A stretch of DNA of 11,046 bases, taken from the NCBI GenBank assembly GCA_014523625.1, contig JAATVP010000114.1, positions 1-11,046 of the forward strand, read 5' to 3'. Made by a program: the position numbers and the translations under genes. Below the pieces are notes generated by a model. It made no database searches. It worked only from the letters and a program-made list of their open reading frames with translations, and was not told the DNA's origin. This document shows, one piece after another, positions 6,010 through 8,367 of this stretch (position 1 is the stretch's first letter; every line of letters starts with the position of its first letter). The stretch comes from Nitrososphaerales archaeon TH5896. Lineage in GTDB: Archaea; Thermoproteota; Nitrososphaeria; Nitrososphaerales; Nitrososphaeraceae.

Positions 6010-6116
6010 CGTCTACAAACTCCCTTCCTATCCCCGTTAGAGAGTACGCTAGGAGGGAATACACTTGAGTGTAAAAGGCTACCAATGAATAGTAGTGAGT
6101 CAGAGGCGGGGGACAT
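6003..6116 (-). CDS. Short serine-rich ORF downstream of the leader-like gene (tentative)
   Basis: A 37-codon ORF starts with ATG 6116, 15 nt after the stop of the 57-codon leader-like ORF on the same strand. It has eight serines, one cysteine (residue 34) and a basic end (CRRI). There is no recognisable motif and no Shine-Dalgarno-like box. Its only claim to reality is its place beside a leader-like gene and a YcaO-TfuA pair, where a short substrate peptide might be expected. An ORF this short occurs readily by chance. Confidence 0.15.
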   Translation of the reverse strand: MSPASDSLLFIGSLLHSSVFPPSVLSNGDRKGVCRRI

Positions 6117-6131
6117 TTTAAATACTTCAGA

Positions 6132-6305
6132 TTACCGAAAACCATCGATCACATTTCTAATTATCGACTTCGCTTCAGATGAAATATCGTAATCGGCTAA
6201 TACCTTGGTCGGTTCTGAAAGCAAGAGTCTTCTGAAATTTGGTTCGCTAGCTGCCCTTAGAAGTATATCGCTAACAATTTTTACATCCGCGTTTCTAATT
6301 TCCAA
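6132..6305 (-). CDS. Small NHLP-clan (Os1348-like) leader-type protein, candidate RiPP precursor
   Basis: This 57-codon ORF begins at TTG 6305 and ends at TAA 6132. Its centre, residues 17-49, reads RAASEPNFRRLL then LSEPTKVLADYDISSEAKSII. This fits the pattern (D/E)PxFRxxLLxxPxxxLxxYdLsxExxxxI of the small NHLP-clan proteins (Os1348-like, related to nitrile-hydratase-like leader peptides), many of which sit near RiPP-modifying enzymes. Only about eight residues follow the conserved helix, with no Cys or Gly-rich core, so it may be a leader-only or partner protein rather than a full precursor. TTG is the only plausible start: TGA closes the frame at 6314-6312, and the AT-rich element AAATTAAG (6330-6337) lies about 29 nt upstream, which suits a leaderless mRNA. 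It diverges from the YcaO gene across 98 nt. Family resemblance is by eye, not by search. Confidence 0.6.
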   Translation of the reverse strand: MEIRNADVKIVSDILLRAASEPNFRRLLLSEPTKVLADYDISSEAKSIIRNVIDGFR

Positions 6306-6403
6306 CAGGAATCATTCTGTATATGGAATCTTAATTTGTAGTTTTCTACCTACTGTATACCACAAGAACATTATTATTCTGAAAATTTGATTCCGAATAT
6401 GTA
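6306..6403. promoter_or_regulatory. Divergent promoter region between leader-like ORF and ycaO
   Basis: This 98-nt AT-rich spacer carries TATA-like tracts for both sides. ATTATTATT (6370-6378) is centred about 30 nt before the ycaO TTG at 6404. On the minus strand AAATTAAG (6330-6337) is about 29 nt before the TTG at 6305. Neither start has a Shine-Dalgarno-like box, so both mRNAs may be leaderless. Confidence 0.4.
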
Positions 6404-7711
6404 TTGCGACTAGTAGACCAATTTAAATGGTCCAATAATGGCACAAGTAGGATCCAACCACCAGAAAAGACCCTTCTGGCAGTGGAGGCGATCACGGGAA
6501 AGATTGGGGTGACACGTATTGGCAATATTACTCACCTGGATAGACTCGGTATCCCCAATTATTCAATTGTTCTACCCGGTACAGAGGATTACATTTGGGT
6601 CTATAGTGGAAAGGGTTTTACCATGAAGCAAGCCAGGACAAGCGGACTTATGGAAGCTGTAGAACGATATTCTTCTTTGCCTAGCAACTATGAACGTCCA
6701 TTCATTAGGGGGTCATATTTTGAGCTGTCAAAACGGTATAACATACTTAGTCCAGATGATGTTTGTGAACCCCTGTCTGTTCAGTATAAGAATGGTATGG
6801 TAATGGAATACGTTCAGGGCTTTGATCTGATTTCTAGTGAACAGATTCTAGTACCTGCCCCTTTGGCCTTGTTTAGGTACACTCAGGACGGTCGAGCTGT
6901 CAATCCGTTCTCTTTTTCTCATACAAACGGACTCGCATCAGGAAATGTTTTGGAGGAGGCAATATGCCATGCTTTGTGCGAAGTAGTTGAGCGAGATGCA
7001 TCAAGCCTGGCTGATCTGCGCTCGAGCGCATTTCCATTTCATCTCATAAAGATCCTCACAAACACGTTTAAGGAAAGGGGATATGCAATAGATGAAATTA
7101 CTTCGAACATGATGGTTGATGAACCAAATTTGTTTCCAATGCTCGATCTTGAAGATGCAATTTTTCAACCGGCGAAGAATCTAGTGAATAGATTTAGGGC
7201 CGCAAATATTTCATTGATGGTCAAGGAGATTACAAGTGATGTGGGGATACCGACATTCAATGCTGCAAGTGTTGAATGGCTGACTCAAAATTACGGTTAT
7301 CTTGCCGAAGGAACGGGTACGCATCCGGATGCCCGGATTGCACTGGTAAGGGCAATTACCGAACTTGCTCAGACTCGAGCGGCCAACATTCAAGGTGCTA
7401 GAGATGATCTCCGCAAAATTAATTATATTGGTGAAAATTCAGAGGACAGGAGGTCATGGCAATTCATGAAATCTGATCGACAAGTTCTTCTCTCAGAGGT
7501 TAAGAGCTACTATAATGAAAACATACTAGATGATATAAGATTAATCCTCAATCATCTTAAAGCCGTGGGGCTCAAGAAAGTCATTGTGGCGGATCTGACG
7601 GTGCCGTGGATAGGAATTCCAGTGGTAAGGGCAATCGTACCAGGTTTGGAAACATTCAAGTTCACAAAATCTGTTATAGGTCAAAGGGCAAGGAATTATT
7701 TCAAAATATGA
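6404..7711 (+). CDS. ycaO: YcaO-domain ATP-dependent protein/peptide-modifying enzyme, TfuA-associated type
   Basis: YcaO enzymes use ATP to activate a backbone amide; with TfuA the known outcome is thioamide formation, as on McrA glycine in methanogens and in thioviridamide-type RiPPs. The 435-residue protein shows the ATP/Mg site: SGLMEAVER at 80-88, an N-x3-E-x7-E-x2-E array at N181, E185, E193 and E196 inside NGLASGNVLEEAICHALCEVVERD, and ITELAQTRA (E320, Q323) in the late helix. The C-terminal part has PVVRAIVPGLE (406-416), but the protein ends in ARNYFKI without the PxPxP tail of azoline-forming YcaO proteins, which fits a TfuA partner. TTG 6404 is the start: TGA closes the frame at 6380-6382 and no ATG or GTG lies between. 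It overlaps tfuA by four bases. The true substrate is unknown; no McrA gene is present here. Confidence 0.93.
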   Translation: MRLVDQFKWSNNGTSRIQPPEKTLLAVEAITGKIGVTRIGNITHLDRLGIPNYSIVLPGTEDYIWVYSGKGFTMKQARTSGLMEAVERYSSLPSNYERPFIRGSYFELSKRYNILSPDDVCEPLSVQYKNGMVMEYVQGFDLISSEQILVPAPLALFRYTQDGRAVNPFSFSHTNGLASGNVLEEAICHALCEVVERDASSLADLRSSAFPFHLIKILTNTFKERGYAIDEITSNMMVDEPNLFPMLDLEDAIFQPAKNLVNRFRAANISLMVKEITSDVGIPTFNAASVEWLTQNYGYLAEGTGTHPDARIALVRAITELAQTRAANIQGARDDLRKINYIGENSEDRRSWQFMKSDRQVLLSEVKSYYNENILDDIRLILNHLKAVGLKKVIVADLTVPWIGIPVVRAIVPGLETFKFTKSVIGQRARNYFKI

Positions 7712-8367
7712 AAAACGTAGTTATTTTTGTTGGTCCTAGTTTAGATCCCGAAAAGGCTCGAACGATATTAGAAGCCGACTATAGACCTCCAGCGAAGAAA
7801 GGAGATCTGATCAAATTGATTATGTCTCTAGACGATAAGGAGACAGTGGTAGGACTAATTGATGGATATTTCTTGCTTGACTATCCGCCAACACCTATTG
7901 AAGTTTATCAGTTGATTGTTAGACCCAATACTGTTGTAATCGGATCATCAAGCATTGGGGCTCTACGAGCAGTCGAACTACAAAAATTCGGAATGATTGG
8001 AATAGGAAAAATATTCCAACTATTCAAAAACGGAAAACTAGATGCGGACGACGAAGTAGCTGTAACTTTTTCTCAGGACTTGTACCGCCTTCAGTCTGAA
8101 GCAATGGTAGATATTCGGTATAACCTATACCTCTCACTGAAAAGAGGGTTTGTCGATAAGGAAACCAAGTATGCTATCACTAAGGTAGCCAAGAATATCT
8201 ATTTTCCATTTAGAACCTACCAAAATATCATTGAAGAAACCATCAAAAGATATCCTCAACTGGAGAATAACGCAAGACGATTCGAATCCTACATCCTTAG
8301 GAATAGAAAGAGTCTAAAAGAGAAGGATGCTTTGAAACTTATTGAGCAGATTAGAGATATGATTTAG
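7708..8367 (+). CDS. tfuA: TfuA-like protein, partner of YcaO
   Basis: TfuA proteins work with an adjacent YcaO in thioamide formation, and are thought to help deliver sulfur or recruit the sulfur donor. The 219-residue protein shows the family core clearly: VGPSL at 8-12, PPAKKGDLIKLI at 27-38, VVGLIDGYF at 47-55, then GSSSIGALRAVEL (79-91), FGMIGIGKIFQLF (94-106) and DADDEVAVTF (112-121). The rest is helical and charged, without membrane segments. Start ATG 7708 overlaps the ycaO stop as ATGA, so the two are almost certainly one transcription and translation unit; the open frame extends upstream inside ycaO but that part is a shadow. A T6 run soon follows the gene. The family call is firm, the substrate is not known. 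Confidence 0.93.
   Translation: MKNVVIFVGPSLDPEKARTILEADYRPPAKKGDLIKLIMSLDDKETVVGLIDGYFLLDYPPTPIEVYQLIVRPNTVVIGSSSIGALRAVELQKFGMIGIGKIFQLFKNGKLDADDEVAVTFSQDLYRLQSEAMVDIRYNLYLSLKRGFVDKETKYAITKVAKNIYFPFRTYQNIIEETIKRYPQLENNARRFESYILRNRKSLKEKDALKLIEQIRDMI

Follow-up and report, generated by a model that had tools for sequence, protein, structure and literature searches.

A small leader-like protein inherited with YcaO and TfuA in ammonia-oxidizing archaea, and its candidacy as a thioamidated client

What does a YcaO–TfuA pair modify in an archaeon that oxidizes ammonia? In methanogens and other Mcr-bearing archaea, the two enzymes thioamidate a glycine of McrA. Homologs from ammonia oxidizers were placed in the methanogen YcaO clade in 2017 (eLife; PMC5589413), and eight TfuA clusters from Thaumarchaeota have also been reported (PMC8120280). 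The parts of those two papers on which we draw name no client for them, and the role of the pair in ammonia oxidizers has been a question ever since the homologs were seen (PMC5589413). Our interest was in one such pair, from Nitrososphaerales archaeon TH5896, and in the small gene that reads away from it.

The locus and its genome

The window, by which we mean the whole 11,046-nt stretch of DNA analyzed (contig C51 of the assembly), holds an intact ycaO–tfuA pair at 6404–8367. The original prediction had described such a pair, overlapping by ATGA, with a 57-codon open reading frame divergent from it over a 98-nt spacer, and both the coordinates and the Pfam matches agree (Table 1). Around the three genes are coaD, trpS, pheS, pheT and a glycosyltransferase gene. 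The host genome is 2.74 Mb in 277 contigs, and the assembly is 92% complete. It encodes one YcaO, three matches to the ThiS family and archaeal AmoA (E 1.9e-118), which identifies the organism as an ammonia oxidizer, as had been guessed from the neighborhood. A search with PF02249 for McrA, sensitive enough to give matches in two control genomes, returned zero matches in this 92% complete assembly. The expectation that the pair would have a client other than McrA, which a McrA gene in the genome would have undercut, is consistent with this result. Among the named relatives returned, a Nitrososphaerales MAG (L114) is the closest, with a YcaO 97% identical. The palindrome GTAGAAAACTAC in the divergent spacer is intact in four of five same-genus sequences, the fifth (L116) having a single substitution.

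Table 1. Features of the locus, in window coordinates
Feature	Position	Strand	Description
Conserved noncoding element	6032-6115	+	RNA-like, about 84 nt, 3' of pheT
Small gene	6132-6305	-	57 codons, TTG start, TAA stop; free-standing NHLP/nitrile-hydratase-leader-like protein, companion of ycaO-tfuA
Divergent spacer	6306-6403	.	98 nt; palindrome GTAGAAAACTAC; TATA-like sequence ahead of small gene (by eye)
ycaO	6404-7711	+	435 aa, TTG start; PF02624 E 2.9e-72
tfuA	7708-8367	+	219 aa; ATG start within ATGA overlap with ycaO; PF07812 E 5.5e-33

The noncoding element behind pheT is an observation in its own right. It follows pheT in all 24 named loci that hold that gene, with 82% mean column identity over 23 sequences and ends that read CCCCG...CGGGG; a TATA-like box stands some 25 nt upstream, judged by eye. 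It has no Rfam match and no tRNA, and no base pair in it is changed on both sides. In locus L129, where 2.6 kb separate it from the small gene, the element remains with pheT.

The two enzymes

A Pfam scan of the window's YcaO finds the YcaO domain only, and no RRE domain was found for it. The YcaO and TfuA domains are encoded side by side, and the Glu, Asn and Arg positions that we take to be the YcaO ATP site are invariant in alignment A2. Judged by adjacent domains and an intact ATP-site pattern, the pair can be classed with the YcaO–TfuA thioamidation enzymes in general, and a thioamide would be its product. As a pair dedicated to McrA it does not qualify, to judge from its scores and from McrA not being found in the genome: YcaO reaches 291.3 bits against TIGR03266 (cut-off 365) and TfuA 203.7 against NF033432 (cut-off 235.2), both below the McrA-specific models. 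The likeness to the methanogen systems thus lies in the adjacency of the enzymes and, as described below, in a neighboring clade of the tree; the differences are these scores, McrA and the presence of a small companion. The YcaO of Escherichia coli is far more distant by score (25.9 against 700 bits for NF040716), and works without TfuA or a small companion.

One genome of genus g6 has rhodanese and nitrite/sulfite reductase genes adjoining tfuA (L082, 7887–10567), a possible sulfur supply.

A real gene for a small protein

A first pass with tblastn found the small gene in 38 of 61 relatives, and 30 extracted frames align with a common stop. When the window is cut into 308 six-frame segments, the small open reading frame is the only one picked (E 5e-24) by a profile of 33 relatives from which the window protein and its same-genus sequences were left out. 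With dN/dS between 0.06 and 0.41 in 20 close pairs, the small gene is real and under purifying selection. TTG is its usual start across 45 named loci, which also have, by eye, a TATA-like box about 25–30 nt 5' of the gene. Its product diverges faster than the enzymes, the mean corrected distances over 46 loci being 1.05 (small protein), 0.57 (YcaO) and 0.61 (TfuA). Four genomes (G306, G329, G401 and G383) have two or three matches each; for the first three, no YcaO match lies on the stretches fetched around the extra copies (L077, L078, L080, L081), and contamination is about 6% in G329 and G401.

A leader-like domain with no core

The likeness to NHLP and Os1348 that had been read from the single protein is real, weak when that protein is taken by itself and firmer by profile. 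By itself it scores 20.1 bits against NF038399 (cut-off 40), 12.8 against TIGR03793 (50.9) and 17.3 against PF14407 (48), a comparison with curated cut-offs made for the window's protein and not for the other 36 members of alignment A5. That alignment combines it with 36 of the 45 named loci to give 37 sequences of 55–64 aa from several genera. Matches at E≤0.05 were found for 31 of the 37 with the Os1348 model NF038399 and for 31 with the NHLP model TIGR03793; PF14407 is matched by 20. The families matched by most members are leaders of the NHLP, TOMM and Frankia types. Against the PDB, the A5 profile reaches nitrile hydratase alpha (1v29, E 4e-8), the NHLP leader peptide (9cjx, E 0.0038) and 8tb1 (E 0.055), and gallate dioxygenase as well. 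This profile relationship assigns the small protein to the NHLP/nitrile hydratase alpha superfamily.

Five residues are invariant in A5: A18, F24, R25, L36 and K46. All but K46 appear to serve the fold. The C-terminal tail is variable, and the protein ends 10–15 residues past Lys46. None of the 37 sequences has a Gly-Gly, Gly-Ala or Gly-Cys motif or a core, and only seven contain Cys; the window's own protein has no L(X)4L segment. The AlphaFold2 model has four helices (5–20, 22–30, 32–37 and 43–56; mean pLDDT 90.4) and is helical nearly to the C-terminal end, leaving few free backbone amides. As modeled, the small protein stands alone as a helical domain and stops at the point at which a RiPP core would be expected to start. 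A classical RiPP precursor was rejected on the lack of a C-terminal core after a cleavage motif.

How does it compare with its better known kin? It shares with NHLP (proteusin) leaders and Os1348 a superfamily, by profile, and, in its model, a helical build; it differs from them in its 55–64 aa, in having no LXXXXL segment, Gly-Gly or core, and in the window protein falling below the curated cut-offs. Os1348 is a dimeric helical protein of 85 aa (PMC7726476). In MprE7, whose structure is described in PMC10858898, the NHLP bundle and a C-terminal LXXXXL motif dock on the RRE domain of YcaO (PMC12455567); it is absent from the structural-search matches listed for our model, which carries no weight for or against. 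In the actinobacterial thioamidated-RiPP clusters of RiPPER Network 7, YcaO–TfuA is likewise paired with small nitrile-hydratase-domain proteins (PMC6511847). Those are read as natural-product precursors, whereas ours are coreless and kept across archaeal families, a separation that we draw from the description of the network (PMC6511847). The small-protein profile found no match at E≤0.01 in 14 bacterial and methanogen-type YcaO loci (L180–L193).

Three genes inherited together

Among 400 genomes of the class Nitrososphaeria, TfuA is found in 71, the small protein in 66 and both in 65. By family, TfuA and the small protein are found in 62 and 58 genomes of f1 (the window's own Nitrososphaeraceae, with Nitrososphaera, g5, and Nitrosocosmicus, g2), in six and seven of f3 (Nitrosocaldus and Nitrosothermus), in one each of f5 (SAT137), and in two and none of f9. 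Because these co-occurrence counts all nest within three families, they represent few independent events. AmoA is encoded in 196 of 290 genomes searched, many of them in family f2, which is taken to be Nitrosopumilaceae; none of the 71 TfuA or 66 small-protein genomes belongs there.

The original prediction would have these three genes stay together in relatives, with the small frame neither absent nor unconserved where ycaO–tfuA is kept. They do stay together: 65 of the 71 TfuA genomes keep the frame, and the small gene is near ycaO in 45 of 60 named loci, always divergent, with a gap of 64–1644 nt (median 108). The gap exceeds 1 kb in four Nitrosocaldus-type loci, and in both annotated ones (G067, G077) a transporter gene lies in between. 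Three of the 15 named loci that have no small gene nearby are cut by the end of a contig (L118, L149, L153), nine (L120–L124, L127, L130, L136, L172) correspond to genomes that carry the gene far off or on a different contig, one (L126) is genome G365, and two (L125, L140) have no assigned reason. Two loci that have the small gene (L157, L178) carry the record name Nitrosopumilus; their YcaO and small protein resemble those of Nitrosocosmicus, and we take them as misnamed bins.

The exceptions are few. The small protein occurs without TfuA in a single genome (G360), which is 67% complete. Four f1 genomes have TfuA without the small protein: in G185 there are 365 nt between the start of ycaO and a contig end; in G224 and G253 tfuA lies 1509 and 264 nt from the contig start, so that its neighbors would fall on the contig boundary or beyond it; and the assembly of G365 is 66% complete. 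Genomes of Nitrososphaera (g5) and genus g3 keep both genes, but far apart (G072, G109, G121, G132, G136). Beside these unlinked copies lie a Na+/H+ exchanger gene (the first four genomes) and a gene for an apparently secreted Ser/Thr-rich protein (the first three), and guilt by association suggests no mechanism for either.

Might another small gene serve the pair? An all-against-all comparison of 1539 small open reading frames from 54 loci found just one family, the small gene itself, that is shared by all 46 linked loci. Second and third come families of 26 and 25 loci, which consist mostly of its antisense shadow and of frames lying across the conserved noncoding element; no other family occurs in more than 10 loci. 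A second conserved small precursor near the pair was rejected on this basis. Partial distance correlation ties the small protein to YcaO given TfuA at 0.42 and to TfuA given YcaO at 0.00; a control, PheS with YcaO given PheT, gave 0.71, exceeding both.

McrA or the small protein

McrA is encoded in four of the 400 class genomes (G267–G270), all in f9, a family in the same order as the window. Two of them (G267, G269) have TfuA and McrA without the small protein. A draw of 250 genomes from the phylum gave TfuA matches in 30, 26 of which lie outside Nitrososphaeria, one (G606) being below the family cut-off. McrA was found in 30 of 35 genomes searched, these being all 26 together with the four of f9; 28 of the 30 have TfuA, and in none of the 30 does the small protein appear at E≤0.001. 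The five McrA-less genomes include three with the small protein (G112, G403, G137) and two without (G365, G224). McrA and the small protein are mutually exclusive in the genomes searched. Below threshold, small-protein matches fall within frames of about 460 aa in two McrA genomes of f9 (G269, E 0.002; G270, E 0.014). Where methane-cycling relatives have McrA, these ammonia oxidizers seem to have the small protein in its place.

The YcaO tree holds 110 of 132 full-length sequences, 22 locus ids having been dropped first as duplicate or partial, and was rooted on Actinobacteria by our choice. All ammonia-oxidizer sequences, including paralogs with no TfuA, form one clade (support 0.76), joined at 1.0 to a McrA-partnered clade that itself has support of 1.0 and in which the YcaO of two f9 genomes sits.

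The TfuA-less paralogs, seven in number (L161, L162, L164, L169, L170, L173, L198), have company of their own. Six are 48–52% identical to the window's YcaO and the seventh was found by profile. Each of their loci has one to six genes of what we call the WQW family (PYGxTYGEWxARWWQWLLSIP...), the nearest at a gap of 69–763 bp, and five of the seven have a related hydrophobic protein of about 450 aa. As many as 41 matches to the family occur in a single genome. The family has no confident Pfam match, and its model is mostly beta with no confident PDB match. The window's genome has four members, and a second YcaO was not found there. TfuA-less YcaO and the WQW family may together form a second YcaO modification system. 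The family was rejected as a client of the YcaO that is paired with TfuA: it is at none of 60 main YcaO loci, and four f3 and f5 genomes (G067, G077, G112, G403) have no match.

Client, adaptor or neither

That the small protein works with YcaO–TfuA in some way is, to our minds, very probable. The original prediction had left a choice between a RiPP-like pathway and a new protein target. The conserved link favors a protein partner or client of the enzymes over a natural-product precursor, and a RiPP precursor of the usual kind finds no support in 37 coreless sequences.

Our preferred reading, held tentatively and at a little under even chances, is that ammonia-oxidizing archaea have in this locus a module dedicated to backbone thioamidation, with the small protein as its client. 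YcaO would activate a backbone amide using ATP, and TfuA would supply the sulfide equivalents, with a thiocarboxylated ThiS-type protein as the probable carrier. Ammonia oxidizers are aerobic, which fits a TfuA-dependent route. Organisms outside sulfide habitats tend toward thiocarboxylated ThiS-type carriers and TfuA for sulfide delivery (PMC13063428). The client would be a folded protein recognized by its tertiary structure, as the folded cellular protein uL16 is by E. coli YcaO (PMC13063428), and we infer that it carries the thioamide, in a loop or at an end. We favor this reading because of the co-inheritance in 65 genomes, the exclusion with McrA, the divergent linkage in 45 of 60 loci, the small gene's presence in all 46 linked loci and its purifying selection, together with the three ThiS-family matches and the uL16 precedent. 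It is weakened by the want of a standout residue for modification, by a model that is helical almost throughout, by divergence faster than that of the enzymes, by the few independent events and by the sub-threshold matches in f9.

Could the small protein instead be a coreless leader acting in trans, docking on YcaO and then recruiting, positioning or licensing another protein client for thioamidation? We give this a real, if somewhat smaller, chance. The co-inheritance data fit it equally, the small protein is the helical part only, and a separate docking protein would make sense for a YcaO with no extra Pfam domain; in its superfamily, NHLP leaders use a folded helical bundle to dock on an azoline-forming YcaO (PMC12455567). 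However, MprE7 uses an RRE domain and a C-terminal LXXXXL motif, and since we found counterparts of neither here, any docking must differ from that of MprE7. Nor is a second small gene common to all loci, and the two or three copies in some genomes look more client-like than adaptor-like.

A different part in the same pathway, as structural subunit, stabilizer or regulator of the pair, we consider unlikely. All the co-inheritance evidence is compatible with it, and divergent arrangement is common for regulators. Yet most members match leader families; an AsnC-type ligand domain gives one weak match (E 0.016) among the 37, and scans of all of them list no DNA-binding domain. Less probable still is a cleaved, thioamidated RiPP natural product: it could appeal to the nitrile-hydratase-domain precursors of the actinobacterial clusters (PMC6511847) and to the ABC-type permease genes that adjoin the pair in a single genome of the Nitrosocaldus family (L066), but it meets the coreless alignment and the nine window proteins scanned with Pfam, among which there is no protease or exporter. 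An accidental neighborhood, for which the scattered genes of Nitrososphaera and g3 might speak, is the most improbable of all, given that those genomes still keep both genes, that 65 of 66 small-protein genomes have TfuA (the exception being an incomplete assembly) and that the 28 McrA genomes with TfuA are all without the small protein at E≤0.001.

A sulfur-modified protein in ammonia oxidizers?

In the open-licence literature searched, we found no companion protein of an ammonia-oxidizer YcaO–TfuA; thioamidation in ammonia-oxidizing archaea was found only in PMC5589413, and YcaO in Nitrososphaera nowhere. As far as that literature goes, three things appear to be novel: the companion, the fact that it is coreless, and its mutual exclusion with McrA. 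It is quite possible, though somewhat less likely than not, that three families (Nitrososphaeraceae, the Nitrosocaldus family and f5) thioamidate a housekeeping protein of about 57 residues, a trait possibly ancestral and lost in f2. uL16 is counted as the second protein thioamidated by a YcaO, after McrA (PMC13063428); if our preferred reading is true, this small protein would be a third kind of thioamidated cellular protein. Because the candidate partner is small and easy to express, and because genomes show a clear pattern of either McrA or the small protein, the question can be put to a direct test. The pattern points to a sulfur-modified protein not yet described in ammonia-oxidizing archaea.
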